Source: Methylocystis silviterrae
Lineage (GTDB): Bacteria; Pseudomonadota; Alphaproteobacteria; Rhizobiales; Beijerinckiaceae
Direction of reading: 5' to 3'
Assembly: GCF_013350005.1 (NCBI RefSeq)
Contig: NZ_JABVWW010000001.1
Location: 124,001-188,000 of the forward strand
DNA length: 64,000 bases
In this document: piece by piece, positions 3,097 to 31,924 of the stretch
How positions within the stretch are numbered: position 1 is the stretch's first letter
Layout: every line of letters begins with the position of its first letter
Notes under the pieces: model-generated
Told to the model about the DNA's origin: nothing
Databases searched by the model: none
The model's input: the letters and a program-made list of their open reading frames with translations, nothing else
Translations under genes and position numbers: made by a program

Positions 3097-3912
3097 CTAC
3101 TTCGGTCGCGGAATTGCCAGCCCTGCCTTCTTCAGAACTTTACGCTTATAAATAGTATAGGTATCATCATTTCTAAGACTATGTGGTGATTGTTCCATTA
3201 CGTTGACTGTGGATTCTCTTTGCGTCCTCAAGCCTAGAAAGCTCACTGCAAAGAAAGGGCTATCTGGGCTTCTGTCGCCTTGATTACATCCCGCGGCAGA
3301 ATTACTTTTTCTCCAATCCTGCGGGCGATATACATCAACATCGACGATATGATCCATTCTGTCGAACTCCGGCGAACGAAGCAAAGAAAACGATCGTACA
3401 GGCAGTTCGGCGTCTATCACAATTCTTATTCGAAAAATGAAGTACGTAATAGCGCATCTCTCGGTCGTCGAAGGTAATTCTTTTGCTCGATCATATGTTT
3501 CTATATCTTTGAAGACGCAATATTTGGTATCTTCTCCGATGGCGATGTACGCCAAATCCTTCGAATTCGCCGCGTCTTTGACTGAGACGACGTTGTTCTT
3601 GAGGGTGAACTTGATGTCCGCAAATTTGGTCGCGTGCGACGAAGTTCCCGGCGGCCCGGAAAATCGGTTGAGAATCTGGTAATCCGAACTGCACTCGTAG
3701 GAGCCGGGGGCATCGCCTCTGTAGTTTTCCGCCGCTTCAGCCGGAGCGGCGCTTGCGACAAGCATTGCGGAAAAAACAAGCGCGCCGAGGATCCGCCGCG
3801 CGGCCGCCACGAAACATGAATTGCGCGAACCCGTGTCCGCCACGTCGGAGAAGAAAAAAAATCTCAAGACAAAAACCTTCCCGCAATTGGCCGCTAAACG
3901 GGGCAGGCTCAC
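3097..3912 (-). CDS. Uncharacterised exported protein, AT-richer than neighbours
   Basis: Family not recognised. The open frame gives 271 residues from a GTG at 3912, without a convincing ribosome binding site. A hydrophobic segment (about residues 40-60, RILGALVFSAMLVASAAPAEA) followed by Ala-X-Ala looks like a Sec signal peptide, so the true start may lie nearer to it; a GTG in front of AAARRILG is one candidate. The mature part contains Y-E-C, VVSVKDAANSK and KYCVFKD, with several cysteines that could form disulfides. Bases 3120-3650 are visibly AT-richer than flanking DNA, which suggests transfer. It is convergent with hypB and unrelated to it. The small exported protein at 22625-22984 has a vaguely similar layout (see findings). 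Confidence 0.6.
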   Translation of the reverse strand: MSLPRLAANCGKVFVLRFFFFSDVADTGSRNSCFVAAARRILGALVFSAMLVASAAPAEAAENYRGDAPGSYECSSDYQILNRFSGPPGTSSHATKFADIKFTLKNNVVSVKDAANSKDLAYIAIGEDTKYCVFKDIETYDRAKELPSTTERCAITYFIFRIRIVIDAELPVRSFSLLRSPEFDRMDHIVDVDVYRPQDWRKSNSAAGCNQGDRSPDSPFFAVSFLGLRTQRESTVNVMEQSPHSLRNDDTYTIYKRKVLKKAGLAIPRPK

Positions 3913-4014: not shown

Positions 4015-4896
4015 CTAAATCGCTGCTTCCTTGACGTCGACGCTGACATCCAAATCTTGATCGCCGGCGCCGATAATCACCCCGTCGATCGGCGAAACAT
4101 CCGCATAGTCGCGTCCGATGGCGATGGCGATATGGTCGTTCCCAACGACGATCGCGTTCGTCGGATCAAGGTCGAAGAAGCCAAATTCCGGCCCGCACCA
4201 GACAGACACCCACGCATGGGTTGAATCGGCGCCTTCCAGCCGCGCCTGGCCTGGCGCCGCGAAAGTTCGAAGATAGCCGCTGACATAGGACGCCGCCAGG
4301 CCAAGCCCGCGTAAAGCCGCGATCATGATATGCGCGAAATCCTGGCAGACGCCGCGACGGCGTTCGAACGCCTGGGCGATCGGCGTCGCGATATGCGTCG
4401 CATCCGGATCGTAGGCGAAGTCGGCGTGGATGCGCTGCGTTAGTTCGATTGCGCCTTCGAGAATGGGTCGACCCGGCGAAAAGCTTTTGCGCGCATAATG
4501 CGTCGCTGCGTCGAACAGCGGCGCAAAGCGGCTTGCATAAATGTAATGGGCGGGAGAGGAGGCTGCGAGCGAGTCGGACGCGTAAGCGGCGTTCCTCACG
4601 ATTTCCCATGCCGGCGTCAGCGCCGGCGCAGGCGGGGGCGCCCGTTCGACCGCGACGCGCGCAGCAAGGGCGATTTGCAGTCTCGTATGAGGCTTGAGAA
4701 TGCGCGCTTCGCAGATCCGGTTGCCGTGAAAGTCGATTCTTTCATGGAGGATTTCGGCTGATGGCGACAGCTCAATTCGGTGGGACAGCACGGTTTGGCC
4801 GCGATCGTTTCGCGGGATCAGGCGCATGGCGCAGCGCGCCGAGGCGACCGGCGCGTCATATTTGTAGATCGTGCGATGGGCGATATCGTAAATCAC
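4015..4896 (-). CDS. Transglutaminase-like cysteine protease-fold protein
   Basis: A 293-residue member of the bacterial transglutaminase-like family: an N-terminal beta-rich domain ([17 protein letters not shown]), then a transglutaminase core. The catalytic triad is visible as Cys in RRGVCQDFAH (about residue 160), His in STHAWVSVW (about 208) and Asp in FFDLDPTN (about 224). Members act as amidases or peptidases, or possibly acyltransferases; the substrate here is unknown. No signal peptide is seen, so a cytoplasmic site is likely. It is the last gene of a three-gene minus-strand operon, and its ATG overlaps the end of the ATP-grasp gene by 4 bases. Confidence 0.9.
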   Translation of the reverse strand: MIYDIAHRTIYKYDAPVASARCAMRLIPRNDRGQTVLSHRIELSPSAEILHERIDFHGNRICEARILKPHTRLQIALAARVAVERAPPPAPALTPAWEIVRNAAYASDSLAASSPAHYIYASRFAPLFDAATHYARKSFSPGRPILEGAIELTQRIHADFAYDPDATHIATPIAQAFERRRGVCQDFAHIMIAALRGLGLAASYVSGYLRTFAAPGQARLEGADSTHAWVSVWCGPEFGFFDLDPTNAIVVGNDHIAIAIGRDYADVSPIDGVIIGAGDQDLDVSVDVKEAAI

Positions 4897-7406
4897 GCGA
4901 TCCGTGACGGCTGAGAGTTTGCTGCGCCATCGGCGTCATGCGTGAAATAGCGTTCGGCGATTTTGTCGGCGAGAGACATCAGGCGCTGCTCAAACGCAAA
5001 AATGGTCGCGGCGTCCAGGCGGCGCGCATCCTCCGACTCGAGCTCGGCGCGCAGCTTGACGGAGAGTCGCCGCGGCGGCTCCATGACTCCATCGTCGCGC
5101 AGATTCGGCAGCGCCGCGAGATGTTCGTCGATACGCATCGCCTGGAAGAGGACGGATCGCGGATTGAACGGGTCGAGCATGGCCATGTCGAGGACGGGCG
5201 CCAGAGCGGCTCCGGCGATGTAGCGTGAGCGATAGGTGATCTGCGAATCGAGCAGATCGAGCAAAGCGTCCAACGTCTCGACCGTCGCGTCGTCGCCGGC
5301 GAACTGTCGGGCAAATCGGCAGGTCCCGATGGCGCGTTCGATTCTGCGCCCGAGATCGATAAAACTCCAGCCGGCGACGCGGTTGAAATTTTCGTCGATC
5401 AGTCCGGACAAAGCCGCCAGCGTATGGAGCGAACGCTCCACGATCTCCAGCGCTTCGGGCTCCGTGATGGGGCGGGCGCCCGCGTCCGTCAGACGCGTCT
5501 CGATGCGCCCGATGAGTTGCCAGACATCTTGGGACAAACGCTCGCGCACGATCGAGGCTGCGCGTCTTGCATAGCGCATGACAGAGAGCGCTGAACCGTA
5601 ATTGTCGGCGCCTGCGGCCGCCACCCATGCGATCTGCGTCGGGTCCATGTCCGGCATGTCTTCGGGCGCGGCGCCCCAGGCGATCAGCAGTCGCGCAAGC
5701 CGTTCGATCGATTGGCGCCCTTGAAGATCGATGTGCTGGAGTTCGCCCAGCCGCGCCCCGAGCGACCGCACGACGCGCAATGTCGCTTCGGCGCGCTCGA
5801 GATAGCGTCCCATCCAGAAAAGATTATCGGCGGCGCGGCTCGGCAGATTGCCGAGCGCGCGCACGATCGGCGGATCCTCGTCGGAAGGCAAGAGCGTCGA
5901 CCATTCGATCGGACGGCTCGTCAACACCCAGACGTCGCTCGATTGCGCGCCGGCGTCCATCGACACGGCGCGCGCGTCGAGCCGGTTGGAGATGCGACAG
6001 AAGCCGCCGGGCATCACCGTCCAACCGTCAGCCGTCGCGGCGGCGAACACGCGCAAGGCGAAAGGTCTCGGCGTCAGTCTACCGTCGGCCCAGGCTGGCG
6101 TCGTGGAGAGATTGACAGGTTCCTGAGCGACATAGTCGACGCCGCGCTGATTTATAGCGTCGATCAGCCGCGCGCGCTCCTCGCTGGAGAGCGCATGACC
6201 GAGCGCCTCACGACGTTCGCCAAATCCCGGGAGCCTGTCGCTGAACGCTCCGCTGATCGCGTAGTCGCTCAATGCCTGGACAACTTGATCGCGTTCGCTT
6301 TCGCGTCCACACCACCACGTCGCGACATTGGGAAGTTTGAGGCTCTCGCCGAGCAGGCGTTGCGACAGCTCCGGCAGGAAACTCATCAGCGCGCGCGATT
6401 CGATGAGACCGGCGCCGGGCATGTTCGCGACGACAACGGCGCCGCGACGGATGGCCTCGAACATCCCGGCGACGCCCAGACGCGACGCGGCGTTCTGCTC
6501 CAGCGGGTCGCACCAGTCAGCGTCGACGCGACGCCAAATCGCATCGGCGCGCTTCAAGCCGGCGATGGTGCGCACATGCAGCTTGCCATCGCTCATGACG
6601 AGATCTTCGCCTTCGACCAGCGTAAGGCCGAGATAGCGGGCGAGATTCACCTGTTCGGAATAGGTCTCGCTCCAAGGGCCAGGCGTCAGCAGGCAGATGC
6701 GCGGATCAACGCGTTGCGCCGCGCCGGAAATGCTCGCACGGAATTCTCGGAAAAACGGCGCGAGGCGCTCGACGTTCATGTCTCGATAGAGACTCGGCAG
6801 CGCGCGCGACAGGATCATCCGATTTTCTAAGGCGTAACCAGCTCCCGAAGGCGCCTGCGCGCGATCGCCGAGCACCCGCCAGGCGCCATCGGGCCCGCGC
6901 CCGATATCGGCGGCGTAAAAGCGCAGCCAACGTCCGCCGGGCGGCGCGACTCCGCACATCGGTCGTATGAAGTCCGGCGATCCCGTGATGGCCGCGGCCG
7001 GCAGGGCGCCCTCAGCGACAAGCCGCGCCTCGCCGTAAACGTCATGCAGGATCTGATCGAGAAGTTCGGCGCGCTGTGCGACGCCAGTCGCAATATCGCG
7101 CCATTCTGATTCCGGGATCAGAAGCGGCAAACGCCCTAACGGCCAACTGCGCTCCTTGGTTTCTCCGTGAACCCGGTAGGAAATCCCCATGTCGTCGATG
7201 CGGCGGCCGGCCGCGGCGAAGCGTTGCTCGAGGCCGGTATCGCCGAATGCGGCAAGCGATTCGAGGAACTGGAGCCAGTGCGCACGCGGCCGTCCATCGG
7301 GGTCGAGAAGCTCATCCGGCGCGTCGCGCATCGGCGCATATTGAGCGATCCAGGCGGCAACGCACTGCGACGCCTTGTCCGTTTCAATGGGGCGCTCAGC
7401 GGACAA
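4893..7406 (-). CDS. Circularly permuted ATP-grasp / alpha-E domain fusion protein
   Basis: The 837-residue protein joins a circularly permuted ATP-grasp domain (roughly residues 60-480; segments such as [32 protein letters not shown] and [10 protein letters not shown]) to a C-terminal alpha-E helical domain (from about 520, starting [15 protein letters not shown]). In many bacteria these are two adjacent genes; here they are fused. ATP-grasp enzymes ligate a carboxylate to an amine through an acyl-phosphate, so peptide or amide bond formation is expected, but the substrate is unknown. The gene overlaps both neighbours in the operon (11 bases upstream, 4 downstream), which suggests fixed stoichiometry. 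Confidence 0.92.
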
Positions 7407-10400
7407 TGCTCCTCCGAAGATCCAGCGTCAGCGGAAACTCTTGGCCCGGCTCCTCGCGCGGCGGATCGACAGGCCCGGGCGTGTGCCCATGATCCTGAAA
7501 TCGCGCCAAGCGCCGCGCTTCGGCTTCGTTACTGTTGACGGGGAAGGCGTCGTAATTGCGGCCCCCGGGGTGCGTCGCGTGATACACGCAGCCGCCCAGT
7601 GAACGCCTGCTCCAGCAGTCGATGACGTCGAAGGTCAGTGGCGCATGGACCGGCAGCGTCGGATGCAGGCCCGACGGCGGTTGCCAGGCCTTGAAGCGCA
7701 CGCCCGCCACCGCCTCGCCGGGGACTCCGGTGCTGGTCATCGGCACGCGGCGTCCGTTGCAGGCGATGATGTGTCGGCCCGGAACGAGACCCTTCGCTTT
7801 GACCTGCAGGCGTTCGAGCGACGAATCGACATAGCGCACCGTACTGCCATTCGCGCCTTCCTCGCCCATCACATGCCAGGGCTCAAGCGCGCCGCGGATT
7901 TCCAAATGAACGCCGCCGTGCTCGACGCTTCCGGCGAGCGGGAAGCGGAATTCCCGCTGCGCCTCGAACCATTCCGCTTCGAAGCCGTAGCCGGCGCGGC
8001 GCAGATCATCGACAACGCCGAGGAAGTCCTGCCAGACGAAATGCGGCAGCATGAATTTGTCGTGCAGCGCCGTTCCCCAGCGCACCAGGTCTCCGTGCTG
8101 CGGCTCCCGCCAGAACCAAGCGACGAGCGCGCGAAGCAACAATTGCTGCGCGAGACTCATTCGCGCGTCGGGAGGCATTTCGAACGCGCGGAATTCGACG
8201 AGCCCGAGACGCCCGGTCGGTCCGTCGGGCGAATAGAGCTTGTCGATACAGATTTCGGCGCGATGGGTGTTGCCGCCGACATCGACCAGCAGATTGCGGA
8301 ACAACCGATCGACGAGCCACGGCGGCACATAGCCTTCGCCAGGAGACGGCACCTGCGCCAGTGCGATTTCCAGCTCATAAAGAGAATCGTGCCGCGCCTC
8401 GTCAACGCGCGGCGACTGGCTGGTGGGACCGATGAACAGTCCGGAGAACAGATAGGATAGCGAGGGATGCCGCTGCCAATAAAGCACAAGGCTCTTCAAC
8501 AGGTCTGGCCGGCGCAGGAAGGGCGAGTCGGCTGGCGTTTTGCCCCCAAGCACGACATGATTGCCGCCGCCCGAGCCGATCTGCCGTCCGTCGATCATGA
8601 ATTTGGCGGTCGTCAACCGCGCCCGCCGCGCGTCCTCATAGAGCGCGGTCGTCGTTTCGACGGCCTCCCGCCATGTGGCGGCCGGGTGAATATTGACCTC
8701 GATGACGCCAGGATCAGGCGTCACCTTGATCACTTCGAGGCGCGGATCGTCGGGCGGCGGATAGCCTTCGATGTAGAGCGGCAGCCCGGTCGCTTTGGCG
8801 CTCTCTTCCACCGCCTCGAGCAGTTCGAGATAATCCTCGAGCGTTTCAACCGGCGGCATGAACACGCAGAGATTGCCGTCGCGCGGTTCGATGGTGAAGG
8901 CAGTGCGCACGGCCCCTTCGACAATGGACTGTTCGTGCACGTCCTGGCGCGCGTGACCGCCGGACGTCGCCCCGCCGCCTTGAATGCGGCGAAAATGTCC
9001 GGGTTCCGGCAGCGGCTCGCGAGGCGCGAAGGGATCCTGCGGATAGATGAACGGATATTCGCCTTCGGGGAGCTTGGGCAAGGATGCAACCGGGAGCCGC
9101 AGTCCAATAGGCGAATCGCCCGGCGCCAAGAACAGCTTTCCTCGACGCAGCGTCCACTTCTCCGAGGTCCAGCGCGACTGGGACTCGGCGCGCGCGTTCC
9201 AGCGCTGAATCGGCAGGACGAAACCCGTCGGCTTGCTCAGGCCGCGCTCGAACACCCGCATCATGCGCGAGCGTTCCTCCGCATCGTCGATCTTGGGATC
9301 AGAGGGATCGACATTGATCGGGAGGACGCTCTCCTTGACCATCCAATGCGCGGGATCTTCATAGGCCGGCAAAGCATGTTCGGCGCCCACCCCGAGACGC
9401 TCGGCCAGATCCTGCACAAAGACTTCCGCTGCTGCCGTGGTCGCGCCTTTCGGCTCGGCGATATCGGCGATCAGTTGCGGCTGCGACCAAATCGGCTTGC
9501 CGTCCCGGCGCCAGTAAAGCCCGAAGGCCCAGCGCGGCAGGCTTTCGCCCGGATACCATTTGCCCTGGCCGTAATGCAGAAACCCGTTTGGCGCAAAGCG
9601 CTCGCGCAGCCGGCGTATAAGGTCGTCGGCTCGGGCGCGCTTGGTGGGGCCGGTCGCCGCCGTGTTCCACTCGGGGGACTCGAAGTCGTCGATCGAAACG
9701 AATGTCGGCTCGCCGCCCATGGTGAGGCGAACGTCAAGCGCCTCAAGATCGGCGTCGACCTTCTCACCTAGCTCATCGAGCCGGCGCCATGCGTCGTCCG
9801 AAAAAGGCGCTGTGATGCGTGGCGCCTCATTGATGCGGTCGACGCGCATCTCGAAACCGAATTCGACCTGGGCGGGCTCTACGAGGCCCGACAGAGGCGC
9901 GGCGGAGCGATAGTGCGGCGCGCTGCATAGCGGCAGATGACCTTCGCCACAGAACAGTCCCGACGTCGCGTCGAGACCGATCCAACCAGCGCCGGGCAGA
10001 AAAACTTCCGCCCAAGCGTGCAGATCTGTGAAGTCGTGATCAGTTCCCTTCGGGCCTTCAATCGGATCGACATCGGCCTTTAACTGGATGAGGTAGCCGG
10101 AGACGAAACGCGCCGCGAGACCGAGCTTGCGCAAGATCTGCACGAGAAGCCAAGCGGAATCGCGGCACGAACCCGATCCCAGCGCGAGAGTCTCTTCCGG
10201 CGCCTGCACGCCAGGCTCCATCCGGATGACGTAGCAAATATCGCGGTGCAGCCGCGCGTTGAGTTCGACGAGAAAATCAATTGTCCGCGTCTTTTGCCGC
10301 GGAAGGCTTCGGACAAAGCCTTCCGTCAATGACCCCACGTCCTCGGGTTCCAGATAGGCGGCGAGTTCAATTTTCTGTTCGTCCGGATAAGCGAACGAAA

Positions 10401-10704
10401 ATTCTTCGGCATAAGGCTCGATGAAGAAATCGAATGGATTATAGACGGCGAGATCCGCCAGCAGGTCGACCTCAATCTTGAATTCGCTCGCGCTATCGGG
10501 GAACACCAGACGCGCCAGCCAATTGCCGTGGGGGTCCTGCTGCCAGTTTATGAAATTTTCCGAAGGCGCGATCTTGAGCGAGTAGCTCAAGATTTTCGTG
10601 CGGCAATGCGGAGCCGGGCGCAGACGGACGATCTGCGGACCGAGCGCGACCGGGCGGTCATATTTGTAGTGGGTGATATGGTGAAGCGCGATCTGGATCG
10701 ACAC
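7396..10704 (-). CDS. Transglutaminase-like / DUF2126 fusion protein
   Basis: A 1102-residue protein with an N-terminal transglutaminase-like module (Cys in [10 protein letters not shown] about residue 180, His in LHAWAEVF, Asp in GLDATSGLF) followed by the very long DUF2126 region (from about residue 320 to the end). DUF2126 sequences are reported to contain an amidoligase-like core related to COOH-NH2 ligases; I recall this from comparative genomics and cannot test it here. Segments such as [19 protein letters not shown] and GGNHVVLGG are typical. It is the promoter-proximal gene of the minus-strand operon and is divergent from the metallopeptidase at 11000. Length is normal for the family. 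Confidence 0.93.
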
Positions 10705-10942
10705 GTTAATCAGCGTCTCATTTCAGCGCCATTCGCTCACGAATTGGCGCAGGGCCACTGCCGGGAGTTTAGCGGGGCCGCGCCGCGCAGTGTCAATCTG
10801 AAGAGCCGCCAAAATGGCGGCTTTGTCCGAAATTGCGGCAATAAGCCTAGCGGGTGAATACGGGCTGCGCATTCAACTGGCGCCGGTATAGGATGCTCCG
10901 GAAGACCGAGGCTCCCGAGCGACCACCGCTCTGTCTCGACCA

Positions 10943-10967
10943 GGAACATTCCGCCTGCAGCGCAGTT
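10943..10967 (+). promoter_or_regulatory. Candidate EcfG (general stress sigma) promoter
   Basis: GGAAC at 10943-10947, then 17 bases, then GTT at 10965-10967, resembles the alphaproteobacterial EcfG consensus GGAAC-N16/17-CGTT, except for A instead of C before GTT. It lies about 33 bases upstream of the metallopeptidase ATG at 11000. A short motif like this can occur by chance. Confidence 0.35.
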
Positions 10968-10999
10968 AAGGCGGCAAGCGCGCTCCCGAAAGATCCTCC

Positions 11000-12082
11000 A
11001 TGAAAGCCTTTCGATGCCAAGTTTGCCGCCAGAGCATACTTTTCGAGAACACCAAATGCGAAAGTTGCGGGCACACGCTCGGCTATTTGCCGGCGCATGG
11101 CGCGATGACCGCAGTCGAACCTGCCGGTGACGGATGGCGCGCGTTCGCTGACGGAACCCGCGAATATCGCTTCTGCAAGAACTGGGAGCTGCACGGATGT
11201 AATTGGATGGTCGAGAAGGGCGGCCCTTCGGAGTATTGTGTTGCCTGCCAGCACAATCGAACCGTGCCTGACTTGTCGGACGACAAGCGCCACGCCGCGT
11301 GGCAGAAAATCGAAGCCGCCAAACGACGGCTCTTTTACAGCCTGATCAGACTGAATCTTCCTGCGCCCACGGCGTCCGAGAACGACGGCGAGCCGCTCGT
11401 CTTTGATTTTTTGGCGGAGGAGCCATCGAAGCGGCCGGTGCTAACGGGCCATAGCTCGGGGCTGATCACGATCGCCCTGAAGGAAGCGGACGATCCGGTC
11501 CGGGAAAAAATGCGCGACGATATGGGTGAGCCCTATCGTACGTTGCTCGGGCATTTCAGGCATGAGATCGGCCACTATTATTGGGATCGCATCGTGCCGC
11601 ACTCCGAACATCTTAGGCCGTTTCGTGAGCTCTTTGGGGACGAGCGGGTAGACTATGCCGCCGCCCTAAAGAGACATTACGACGAGGGGCCTCCAGCCGA
11701 CTGGCGACAGAAGCACATAAGCGCATACGCCTCTTGTCACGCGTGGGAAGATTTTGCGGAAACCTTCGCGCATTATCTCCATATCGTCGACACGCTCGAA
11801 ACGGGTCGCAGCACGGGGCTCGTCGTGCGGCGGGATGACGGTTCTCCGGCGCGGGTCGATTTTGATCCCTACGGCTATCCCGACATAAATGAGATGGTCG
11901 ACAGTTGGCTGGACATTTCGTTTGCGTTGAACAACATCAACCGATCGATGGGGCAGCCAGATATCTATCCCTTCGTGATTTCGCCGGTCGTGAAAGAGAA
12001 ACTGGGCTTTGTCCAAAACCTTCTCATGGATCACGCACAGCGGCACGCCGCCGTCGCCGCGCCGCGCGCCGCGTGCTGCTAA
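11000..12082 (+). CDS. Putative zinc-binding metallopeptidase with N-terminal zinc ribbon
   Basis: A 360-residue protein with an N-terminal zinc-ribbon region (CQVCR and CESCG within the first 25 residues, then further Cys pairs near 55-80, FCKNWELHGCNWM and YCVACQHN) and a metallopeptidase core with HEIGHYYWD, an HExxH zinc site, at about residue 190. A second acidic/His segment (CHAWEDFAETFAHYLH) could supply the third ligand. This matches the putative zinc-binding peptidase family that often accompanies transglutaminase/ATP-grasp/alpha-E clusters. No signal peptide is seen. It is divergent from that operon with about 295 bases between. The substrate is unknown. Confidence 0.88.
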   Translation: MKAFRCQVCRQSILFENTKCESCGHTLGYLPAHGAMTAVEPAGDGWRAFADGTREYRFCKNWELHGCNWMVEKGGPSEYCVACQHNRTVPDLSDDKRHAAWQKIEAAKRRLFYSLIRLNLPAPTASENDGEPLVFDFLAEEPSKRPVLTGHSSGLITIALKEADDPVREKMRDDMGEPYRTLLGHFRHEIGHYYWDRIVPHSEHLRPFRELFGDERVDYAAALKRHYDEGPPADWRQKHISAYASCHAWEDFAETFAHYLHIVDTLETGRSTGLVVRRDDGSPARVDFDPYGYPDINEMVDSWLDISFALNNINRSMGQPDIYPFVISPVVKEKLGFVQNLLMDHAQRHAAVAAPRAACC

Positions 12083-12291
12083 TCCATCCATTTGCGATAC
12101 CAGGCCAGCTTGCAGGCGAACGCTCTTGATCTGCGCCGAAGCGGCAAGCATCCCAAAACGAAAGACCGGTTTGACGATGCGCCGCGCCGCTGCGATCAAA
12201 GGCGCAGGATGTGAGCATCGAGGCGCGCCTGTGCGTTCAGGCGCGGACGCGCGCCCCCGTTGCGGCGCCCGACGAGCCTTTGGAGAATCGA

Positions 12292-13424
12292 ATGATCGTT
12301 TCGTCAGCTTCGGATTATCGAAAGGTCGCGCAGCGCAAGCTGCCGCGCTTCCTCTTTGATTATATCGACGGCGGGGCGAACGCTGAAGACACGCTGCAGG
12401 CCAATGTCGCTGATTTGAGAGCCGTGAATCTCAGACAGCGCGTGCTGAAGAACGTTTCCGACCTCAGTCTCGCGACGGAGTGGTTCGGTCAGCCTTCTGA
12501 GCTTCCCGTGATCCTGGCGCCTGTCGGGCTGAGCGGGATGTTTGCCCGTCGAGGCGAGGTGCAGGCGGCCAAAGCTGCGGCGAAGAAGGGCGTTCCTTAC
12601 GTGCTATCGACGCTCTCGGTCTGTTCGCTCGAGGAAGTTACGTCGCAATGCAGCGCAGGAACCATCTGGTTCCAGCTCTACGTGCTCAAAGACCGTGGAT
12701 TCATGCAGTCGATGTTGGAGCGCGCCCAACGCGCAGGCATAGAAAAACTTGTGTTTACGGTAGACTTGCCCGTGCATGGATCGCGCTACCGCGACGCCCA
12801 TTCCGGGCTGTCAGGACCCTACGCCATGCAGCGGCGAATACTGCAGGCGATAACAAAACCCGCTTGGGCCTTTGACGTCGGGATCCGCGGACGACCGCAC
12901 GATCTCGGCAATATCTCAGATTATCTCGGCAAGACGACCGGACTGCAGGATTACATCGGCTGGCTTGGAAAAAACATTGACCCGTCGATCAGCTGGTCGG
13001 ACCTGGAATGGATCCGCGATTTCTGGAAAGGGCCTTTGATCGTCAAAGCGTATTGGATCCCGAGGACGCGCGGGACGCCGTGCGCTTCGGAGCGAACGGG
13101 ATCATTGTTTCCAATCACGGGGGAAGGCAGCTCGATGGGGCGCTGTCGACAGTCAAAGCCTTGCCCCCAATCGCCGACGCCGTCGGAAGCGATCTTGAAG
13201 TGTTTGTCGATTCAGGCGTTCGATCGGGACTGGACGTGGTCCGCATGCTGGCGCTCGGCGCAAAGGGCGTCCTGCTCGGCCGAGCGGCCGCCTATGCGCT
13301 GGCCGCGGCCGGACAGGCGGGCGTCGAGAATATGCTTGAGATCTTCGCCAAGGAAATGCGTGTGGCGATGACGTTGACGGGCGTCACTTCGGTTGCGCAG
13401 ATCGATCGGCGGATTCTCGCTTGA
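12292..13424 (+). pseudogene. lldD: FMN-dependent L-lactate dehydrogenase, interrupted by a frameshift
   Basis: The N-terminal frame (12292 to about 13048) encodes [46 protein letters not shown] and [10 protein letters not shown], all typical of LldD, which oxidises L-lactate to pyruvate and passes electrons to quinone. The rest ([41 protein letters not shown]) continues in another frame up to 13424. The two parts join without missing residues if one G is restored at about 13048, where AAAGCGTA should read AAAGGCGTA. The repaired product would be 377 residues, the full family length. Both halves are well conserved, so this is either a recent mutation or an assembly error. The ATG at 12292 has GGAG about 6 bases upstream. 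Confidence 0.9.
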
Positions 13425-13525: not shown

Positions 13526-14293
13526 TCACGCAAACAGATCGACCCGACCGTCGCCAAGCCGGTAAATTCCGCTCACGATTTTGAAGCGCTTTTCATTGAA
13601 AGCGGCGCTCAGCAAAGGCGTTGCGGTCTTCAGCGTCTCAACGCCGAGCCGGGCGTTTTCCATCGTCGCGTTTTCTAACTGATCGCCTGGACGGCCAGCG
13701 ACTGCTTTGACGGCCGGGGTCAGAGCAGCGACGAGCGAGGGAAGGTGGCCAGGCAAAGTCGTATGGTCCTGGATTGAGGAAATTGCGGATTTAACAGCGC
13801 CGCAGGCTTCGTGACAGAGCACCAGAATGAGAGGCGTCTTTAGGACCTCCACCGCGTATTCCATGCTCGCAATATTGTCCGGGTTGGCGAAGTTGCCGGC
13901 GACGCGAACGACGAAGAGATCTCCGCGCGAACTGTCAAACGCGTATTCCGGCGCGATCCGCGAATCCGCGCAGCTGAGAATCGCGGCGTAAGGATTTTGT
14001 CCGCCGACGAGCGCCTCGCGTTCCGCGACGAAGTCGTGCCGTTTTGCGATGCCTTTCTGATATCGTCTATTGCCCTCCATCAGGCGCGCCAACGCCTCGT
14101 CCGGAGTCATCACGTTCTCAGGCTTGGGCGGCGCACTACTCTGCTTGGTTTGGTTTGACTGGGATTTGACGCCTTGCGCGCGCGCGCTTGCGGCGACCGT
14201 CAGCGCCCCCGCCGTGGCGGCGCCGAAGACAAAGGCTCTGCGGCGCATTTTGCTGCCATGAACGATATCGGCAAAGCCACACGCCTGACACAT
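13526..14293 (-). CDS. Beta-class carbonic anhydrase with export signal
   Basis: It interconverts CO2 and bicarbonate. Zinc ligands and the catalytic Asp/Arg dyad are visible as SCADSR and LCHEACGA. The start at 14293 is set by GGAGG seven bases upstream and gives 255 residues; an upstream TTG in the same frame lacks support. Residues 1-15 are MCQACGFADIVHGSK, followed by MRRRAFVFGAATAGAL and an ARA cleavage site, which looks like a twin-arginine signal, so the enzyme is probably periplasmic. The CxxC in front of the Tat motif is unusual. It is divergently arranged with nepR. A gamma-class relative is encoded at 59847. Confidence 0.88.
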   Translation of the reverse strand: MCQACGFADIVHGSKMRRRAFVFGAATAGALTVAASARAQGVKSQSNQTKQSSAPPKPENVMTPDEALARLMEGNRRYQKGIAKRHDFVAEREALVGGQNPYAAILSCADSRIAPEYAFDSSRGDLFVVRVAGNFANPDNIASMEYAVEVLKTPLILVLCHEACGAVKSAISSIQDHTTLPGHLPSLVAALTPAVKAVAGRPGDQLENATMENARLGVETLKTATPLLSAAFNEKRFKIVSGIYRLGDGRVDLFA

Positions 14294-14622
14294 ACGCGAT
14301 CCTCCGAGAGAGAAAACAAGCGCTCTGCGCTGGTCGCGCAAAGATAGCGCCAAAACGATCGATATTGAAAGCGCCTACTCGAGCTCAGCTTTTTGACCAG
14401 CGGTCAAAATTCGCTTTGCCTTCAATGCTGACAAGGGCGCCATGCGAACGGCTGCCGCTGCCGAAGACCGATGGCGGGCCGATTGAGCAGGATGTGGTGT
14501 GTCTAATTTACCATAAAATTTACAAATCGCCTGTTGCAGGCACGCCGGGGAGCGTCGCTCACATTGTGGCCGCAACCTAAGTCGACGCTCTCACGTCCGC
14601 TGTGGACGAGTGGAGGCGTAAC
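14294..14622. other. Intergenic region between carbonic anhydrase and nepR genes
   Basis: This gap of about 330 bases contains no supported gene. It holds a perfect inverted repeat at 14391-14409 (separate entry) and an AT-rich stretch near 14505-14530 that could hold promoters for either divergent gene. Confidence 0.6.
14391..14409. promoter_or_regulatory. Perfect inverted repeat, possible operator
   Basis: TTTTGACC-AGC-GGTCAAAA has 8-base arms and a 3-base centre. The TTGACC/GGTCAA form is common for TetR-family operators, and TTGACC could also serve as a -35 element. It lies about 98 bases upstream of the carbonic anhydrase start and 214 bases upstream of nepR. No regulator gene is adjacent. 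Confidence 0.45.
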
Positions 14623-31360: not shown

Positions 31361-31924
31361 TTAGATCTTCTCCACCACCACATTCTGGTTGGTATAGACG
31401 CAAATCTCGGAGGCGATCACCATTGCGCGGCGGGCGATGGCTTCGGCGTCGAGGGATGAATCGAGCAGGGCGCGCCCGGCGGCGAGCGCGTAGTTTCCGC
31501 CCGAACCAATGGCGGCCACCGCGCCTTCGCCCGTGCCTTCCGGCTCAAGCACGTCGCCGGAGCCGGTGAGCACGAGGCCGACGCTCTTGTCGGCGACGAG
31601 CATCATCGCCTCGAGGCGCCGCAGATAGCGGTCCATACGCCAGTCCTTGGCGAGTTCGACGCAAGCGCGCATCAATTGTCCGGGATATTGCTCCAGCTTC
31701 GATTCAAGCCGTTCGAAGAGCGTGAAGGCGTCGGCGGTCGCGCCGGCGAAACCAGCGATCACGTCGCCCTTGCCCAGACGGCGCACTTTCTTGGCGTTGC
31801 CCTTCATGATCGTCTGGCCGAGGCTGACCTGGCCGTCGCCGGCGATCACCGTTTCTCCGGCTTTCTTGACGAGGATGATTGTCGTCGCATGCATGGCCGC
31901 AAAGCGGTGTTGTTCGCTATCCAT
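31361..31924 (-). CDS. hslV: HslUV protease proteolytic subunit HslV (ClpQ)
   Basis: Threonine peptidase of the HslUV heat-shock protease. The 187-residue protein contains [10 protein letters not shown], in which a Thr after removal of a short propeptide is the nucleophile, with [13 protein letters not shown] and [14 protein letters not shown] typical of HslV. The ATG at 31924 gives an 11-residue leader; an internal ATG at 31894 is an alternative start. It is the first gene of the hslVU pair. A possible heat-shock promoter lies at 31954-31983. Confidence 0.96.

Follow-up and report, generated by a model that had tools for sequence, protein, structure and literature searches.

The question raised by this locus is which of its proteins could make an amide bond, and under which condition. 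The window, i.e., the whole stretch of 64,000 nucleotides analysed here (contig C11:124001-188000 of a Methylocystis genome near M. rosea), carries an operon encoding a stand-alone transglutaminase-fold (TG) protein, a fusion of a circularly permuted ATP-grasp domain with an alpha-E domain (hereafter the fused protein) and a fusion of a TG domain with the domain DUF2126, together with a neighbouring zinc peptidase gene. The preliminary description of these genes had placed the ATP-dependent ligase in the fused protein, and had itself looked to a careful alignment of the ATP-grasp residues for the decision; on alignment, these residues turned out to be lost. The explanation favoured here, for which the balance of probability is slightly positive in our judgement, is that the window is the second module of a two-module amide-bond system, with DUF2126 as the likely ligase and the fused protein as a twin that serves as partner. 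In the following, the window operon is called system II, and the unfused ATP-grasp/alpha-E/TG set on contig C33 of the same genome is called system I.

The fold of the fused protein is considered before its residues. Its AlphaFold model (pLDDT 85.9) gave, for the ATP-grasp part, a match to 3n6x with Z 43.2 (rmsd 3.4, 442 residues aligned, 29% identity), matches to glutathione synthetases with Z of about 22-26, and matches to glutathionylspermidine/trypanothione synthetases and E. coli YgiC/YjfC with Z of about 20-22. As modelled, the domain clearly has a circularly permuted, glutathione-synthetase-like fold. 3n6x is Mfla_0391 of Methylobacillus flagellatus, labelled 'putative glutathionylspermidine synthase'; it shares the ATP-grasp fold with the fused protein, but it keeps the Glu/Asn and the Gly-rich loop, consists of the ATP-grasp alone and belongs to system I by its residues.

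The residue alignment was composed of 34 proteins of system I, 80 of system II (the window protein among them) and the 3n6x sequence, each protein being assigned to the system whose query scored better, that is, the contig C33 ATP-grasp or the window protein. Frames below 300 bits (the L171 fused protein, the L089 fragment and the edge-cut system I pieces of L183 and L184) were left out of the residue count, and the length step removed one system II frame out of 81; near-identical proteins were retained, and removal at 93% identity leaves 66 system II and 24 system I proteins. At the 3n6x positions E161, N163, K368, G374, G375, D428 and N459, all 34 system I proteins read ENKGGDN, whereas three or more of these seven residues are found in 0/80 system II proteins (mean 0.5). 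The Mg-site Glu (position 161) occurs in 2/80 of system II, both from the near-identical loci L059 and L060. Asn at position 163 occurs in 0/80, the residue being Arg in 78/80, and the window protein has G180 and R182 at the Glu and Asn positions of the inferred Mg site. As for the G-loop, Lys368 is present in 10/80, G374 in 8/80 and G375 in 20/80, compared with 34/34 for each in system I. In the tree, after removal of redundancy, the two systems are split on one branch with support 1.0 (66/66 system II versus 25 others).

In glutathione synthetase, Mg is bound by four acidic ligands, and the comparable Glu is among them (PMC2845819; papers are cited here for the passages available from each). 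Position 161 is equated with this Glu, and N163 and the G-loop are taken as ATP/Mg residues, by motif rather than by superposition. Judged from the aligned sequences, the fused ATP-grasp appears to be without catalytic ATP/Mg residues, and its assignment as the ATP-dependent ligase is not borne out. The alpha-E motifs E537-R538 and E690-R691 are invariant (45/45); in the fold comparison (VIA, aa 520-833), most matches of the alpha-E part were to helical-membrane proteins and chimeras, at Z of about 7-10.5, a common range for helix bundles. The fused protein may be read as a repurposed or non-catalytic twin.

The likelier ATP-dependent ligase of the window, still a putative one, is DUF2126. The 1102-aa protein matches PF09899 over its full length (1338 bits, profile 2-826 of 826) in fusion to the TG domain, and Pfam labels this family 'putative amidoligase'. 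Residues E332, E669, H716, R815, E817, E837 and R839 are present in 69/69 aligned proteins, in motifs which we take to resemble those of glutamine synthetase. The AlphaFold model of the 1102-aa protein is poor (pLDDT 63.6). This poor model was matched to two glutamine synthetases over residues 298-923, with Z 7.8 (255 aligned, rmsd 4.6) and Z 7.2 (248 aligned, rmsd 4.6), values in the common range of the tool. A PDB profile search returned one row at chance level besides two TG chains, and Foldseek on the model returned TG structures and unrelated low-probability rows. The preliminary view of the protein as a transglutaminase holds for its TG triad, but the DUF2126 half is the likelier ligase, and a glutamine-synthetase-like fold is only weakly indicated for it.

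An alpha-E search of the genome revealed a second copy on contig C33, where locus L100:8707-12117 encodes ATP-grasp and alpha-E as separate proteins, together with a TG protein. Among 199 genomes sampled across the phylum (requested completeness at least 90%), DUF2126 was found in 60 and alpha-E in 115. All 60 DUF2126 genomes carry a system-I-type alpha-E, a class assigned by score and frame length rather than by residues (Fisher p 6e-19, ancestry not corrected for), and in 30 of the 60 it lies within 15 kb of DUF2126. Of 20 DUF2126 stretches chosen from these genomes, 19 have the fused protein close to DUF2126, and 10 contain a system I ATP-grasp (two edge-cut). The two systems adjoin in L168, L170-L172, L174, L176, L184, L185 and L187, which belong to other families and classes, and in L185 a DUF2126 without the fused protein stands beside system I. 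In Methylocystis, both in this genome and in those genus members for which the two were listed, on one contig or on different ones, the modules are apart. System I and the DUF2126 module look like one machine. The 'compact island' of the preliminary description is thus compact as an overlapping operon, but it is not the whole, given the second set on contig C33 and the close spacing of the sets in half of the DUF2126 genomes.

The catalytic residues of the other enzymes are uniform. C184, H227 and D244 of the stand-alone TG are present in 79/79 aligned proteins, C180, H229 and D245 of the TG domain fused to DUF2126 in 69/69, and H188, E189 and H192 of the peptidase HExxH motif in 22/22 (window frame included each time), so both TG proteins and the zinc peptidase are as first described. 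PF15887 was found in 34 of the 199 sampled genomes, of which 24 also have DUF2126 (Fisher p 9e-8, ancestry not corrected for); two of the 24 (G231 and G242) contain PF15887 fragments only. It lies within 10 kb of DUF2126 in 9/24; two further genomes have it but lack DUF2126, and in these a system I alpha-E is located 0.3 and 2.4 kb away. The peptidase gene is divergent and upstream in part of Methylocystis, and convergent and downstream in L073, L075 and L079. The zinc peptidase is a recurring, optional partner of the set.

The link to nitrogen comes through system I. The sigma-54 promoter consensus, scored over 12 positions, is TGGCACG-N4-TTGCW. When 250 bases upstream of system I were scanned at 21 loci (hand-chosen from 46 system-I-type rows), a sigma-54-like site with at least 10/12 matches was present in 12, compared with 73/4200 random stretches. 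Nine of these 12 sites are identical in sequence and do not count as independent. At L165 a perfect sigma-54-like site stands farther upstream, the scan being anchored on the frame start, and at L100 such a site is located at 8727-8742, immediately upstream of where the ATP-grasp gene probably starts. It has been reported that PP_2685 (proteasome beta-like) and PP_2688 (ATP-grasp) of P. putida rise by log2 4.4 and 4.0 on nitrate versus ammonium (PMC8050072), and that PP2685-2687 are raised by nitrogen limitation (PMC3325844). The B. cenocepacia cluster I35_5080-83 is listed among the targets that NtrC and sigma-54 share (PMC5491218), an RpoN site is listed upstream of a Bradyrhizobium CP_ATPgrasp_1 gene (PMC13207237), and in marine metagenomes these domains are tied to urea genes (PMC3597751). 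By extension, system I would be under nitrogen control in Methylocystis itself.

The features of the locus are collected in Table 1. The four genes proved to be real and correctly placed; the overlaps within the three-gene operon are 4 and 11 bases long, and the peptidase gene begins 295 bases away on the opposite strand and is therefore taken to stand outside the operon. All Pfam domain scores are far above the cut-offs (e.g., PF14403 with 451 bits in the fused protein, and 350 bits for the peptidase with PF10005 and PF15887), while NCBIfam gave zero matches for all four genes. The ATP-grasp/alpha-E protein is a true fusion by its Pfam domains; since it starts with TTG and the next in-frame ATG is codon 26, its real start is uncertain. 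Its closest loci include M. suflitae and M. rosea (97-98%). The gene order DUF2126-fused-TG is repeated in loci from Methylocystis to Paracoccus and Hyphomonadaceae and is found in other classes within the phylum too, so the arrangement is not due to chance, and the set is a conserved one.

Table 1. Features of the locus, in window coordinates (aa, amino acids)
Feature	Position	Strand	Basis
Stand-alone TG protein, 293 aa	4015-4896	-	PF08379, PF01841
Circularly permuted ATP-grasp + alpha-E fusion, 837 aa	4893-7406	-	PF14403, PF04174, PF04168
Alpha-E domain, aa 521-821; ER motifs E537-R538, E690-R691 kept	4944-5846	-	PF04168
ATP-grasp domain, aa 94-472, apparently without catalytic residues	5991-7127	-	Pfam + residue alignment
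Codons 180-182 Gly-Asp-Arg, inferred Mg-site position (3n6x/system I: Glu-Asp-Asn)	6861-6869	-	
TG-DUF2126 fusion, 1102 aa	7396-10704	-	PF08379, PF01841, PF09899
DUF2126 domain, aa 277-1097, putative amidoligase	7414-9876	-	PF09899, 69/69 invariant residues
TG core of DUF2126 protein, aa 136-246, Cys180-His229-Asp245	9967-10299	-	69/69 aligned
Divergent intergenic region	10705-10999	.	no sigma-54 -24/-12-like site of at least 9/12
Zinc ribbon + Peptidase_Mx metallopeptidase, HExxH aa 188-192	11000-12082	+	PF10005, PF15887

Some neighbouring genes were also recorded. Downstream of the operon, window 3097-3912 (-) encodes a 271-aa protein without a Pfam match, a relative of which was seen, among the named loci, only in L037. 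On the other side, window 12211-13424 (+) contains an FMN-dependent lactate dehydrogenase-like gene (judged by eye) split over two frames, both parts of which match a single open frame in 6/6 relatives checked; the gene was either broken recently or split by an error in sequencing. Window 13526-14353 (-) encodes a carbonic anhydrase (PF00484) with an apparent export signal, again judged by eye.

Iyer, Abhiman, Burroughs and Aravind reportedly predicted in 2009 an amidoligase system composed of a circularly permuted ATP-grasp, a glutamine-synthetase-like ligase, alpha-E and TG. As recounted in papers citing this prediction (PMC3597751, PMC5666114, PMC6376114), the window has the same domain families and linkage, but differs in the fused ATP-grasp without catalytic residues, in the added Peptidase_Mx and in that Anbu was not found. 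The Anbu operon contains genes for an ATP-grasp, alpha-E, a TG protein and the proteasome-like Anbu (PMC6376114, PMC5666114); in the passages available from PMC6376114, Anbu shows no peptidase activity on the substrates tried, and the operon proteins form no stable complex. System I on contig C33 resembles this operon in its ATP-grasp, alpha-E and TG genes. Unlike it, the genome gave no match to the Anbu Ntn-hydrolase in the PF00227 search, and the window operon has DUF2126 and a residue-poor fused ATP-grasp. The sole PF00227 match, C11:155367-155891, i.e., window 31367-31891 (-), has a score of the HslV-like group and is presumably HslV. In a genus survey of 37 genomes (this one included), 15 have a further PF00227 match, of lower score and in a longer frame, and these weaker matches are taken to be Anbu. 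The B. cenocepacia cluster I35_5080-83 is also similar, with DUF404/407, DUF403, TG and a large TG protein clustered, but its DUF404/407 and DUF403 are separate proteins, i.e., unfused (PMC5491218); the large TG protein probably carries DUF2126. In the literature on DUF2126, alpha-E, circularly permuted ATP-grasp and Anbu, the matches listed state neither a reaction nor the residue losses.

The favoured two-module explanation may be laid out as follows. DUF2126 would be an ATP-dependent ligase that joins a carboxylate to an amine, the TG domain fused to it would transfer or cleave the acyl product, and the stand-alone TG would carry out similar chemistry. The fused ATP-grasp/alpha-E protein would be a substrate-binding or regulatory partner, because its fold and alpha-E motifs are kept but its ATP/Mg residues are gone; the ATP-grasp that keeps these residues would be the system I copy on contig C33. 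The zinc peptidase may trim or release the products or their protein carriers. Since expression of system I would be tied to nitrogen limitation via sigma-54/NtrC, the physiological role is probably a nitrogen-stress remodelling of amide-linked peptides or amines. A bolder version, held tentatively and with less than even confidence, is that systems I and II form one composite machine, in which an active ATP-grasp/alpha-E pair is accompanied by a catalytically silenced or repurposed fused twin, the twin having originated a single time and spread through the proteobacteria with DUF2126. The twin would then be a dedicated substrate-binding or allosteric subunit of a second ligase, of glutamine-synthetase type, and the whole would run a cycle of amide bonds under nitrogen stress that TG and the zinc peptidase complete.

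Several observations speak against the two-module explanation. The model of the 1102-aa protein is poor, and hhalign found no relation between DUF2126 and a glutamine synthetase set (22/30 loci past the motif filter), at a probability of about 1%; a profile-level relationship between the two was rejected on this result. Upstream of DUF2126, no sigma-54 site rises above background: sites of at least 10/12 occur in 0/50 regions, and sites at 9 occur in 4/50 against a random rate of 291/4200 (two loci without anchor), so sigma-54 control of the window operon itself was discarded. Shared ancestry is still contained in the co-occurrence counts, and the system I TG is less uniform by simple motifs (Cys 22/27, HAW 25/27). 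In L064, L085, L092 and L094, a fused ATP-grasp/alpha-E and TG occur without DUF2126 in the stretch, an arrangement for which the explanation does not account. Within the fused protein, one acid of the Mg site is kept at the D167 position (D in 60 and E in 20 of 80), and conservation reaches 94% or more at 74 sites in system II, against 175 in system I; given these sites and the invariant ER motifs, the domain is not simply decaying, and it may conceivably hold a nucleotide site of an unusual kind or catalyse a different reaction. A rival reading, in line with the preliminary description, is that the fused ATP-grasp does work as an ATP-dependent peptide ligase by means of alternative residues, with alpha-E as accessory domain. 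The glutathione-synthetase-like fold, the acidic D167 position in all 80 proteins and the many conserved sites would fit it, as would the release of phosphate from ATP by the ATP-grasp of the Yersinia Anbu operon (PMC6376114), which is probably of system I type from its gene context. The near-complete loss of the Mg-site Glu outside L059 and L060, the missing Asn and the scarcity of the G-loop Lys and G374 make it unlikely.

Peptidyl-polyamine chemistry, in which peptides would be joined to polyamines and the bonds undone by TG and peptidases so that nitrogen is stored or released, is improbable to a similar degree. The structural neighbours include the polyamine-type synthetases named above, YgiC/YjfC are described as peptidylpolyamine synthetases (PMC12568646), and in a B. 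cenocepacia ntrC mutant potA and potD of polyamine transport fall together with the TG cluster (PMC5491218). However, glutathione synthetases score above the polyamine-type synthetases, the matches lie in a domain that here appears to have no ATP site, and the spermidine/putrescine transport gene I35_5229 changes with the opposite sign (PMC5491218); no linked polyamine gene was noticed, in the course of work that included no search aimed at such genes. Protein tagging, by which proteins would receive a small peptide or amino acid that TG or peptidases take off again, is given a lower probability again. It is among the proposals for the Anbu operon (PMC6376114), and a peptide-synthesis proposal is recounted in PMC5666114. 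Against it, the genome has no PF00227 match other than the HslV-like gene, and the co-occurring small peptide gene suggested for a check did not appear: among six-frame segments of at least 25 aa from 6-kb flanks (of 57 selected loci, 56 yielded segments and 14 supplied the queries), no small-peptide gene family is conserved across families. Small families spanning two locus groups are only pieces of larger frames, namely the zinc-peptidase gene region (both strands) and a downstream gene in Paracoccus; segments shared solely within Methylocystaceae or within Paracoccus exist, and among such close relatives their conservation is not judgeable. A tag, or a small peptide of another use, that is genus-limited would agree with these results, as would a tag encoded elsewhere or made non-ribosomally.

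In summary, the system is real, conserved and unexplained, and the window holds one half of a widespread predicted amidoligase system. Its chemistry appears to be the formation and cleavage of amide bonds, probably under nitrogen shortage; as the preliminary description had it, no substrate is established, none being stated in the literature examined. The present analysis assigns the likely ligase anew, ties the set to system I and to nitrogen, and shows the zinc peptidase to recur beside it. The family is common in the phylum (alpha-E in 115/199 genomes), with no published reaction found in the same literature. With the likely ATP-competent protein named, the two modules linked and nitrogen limitation proposed as the test condition, the biology of this family is brought down to a short list of experiments.

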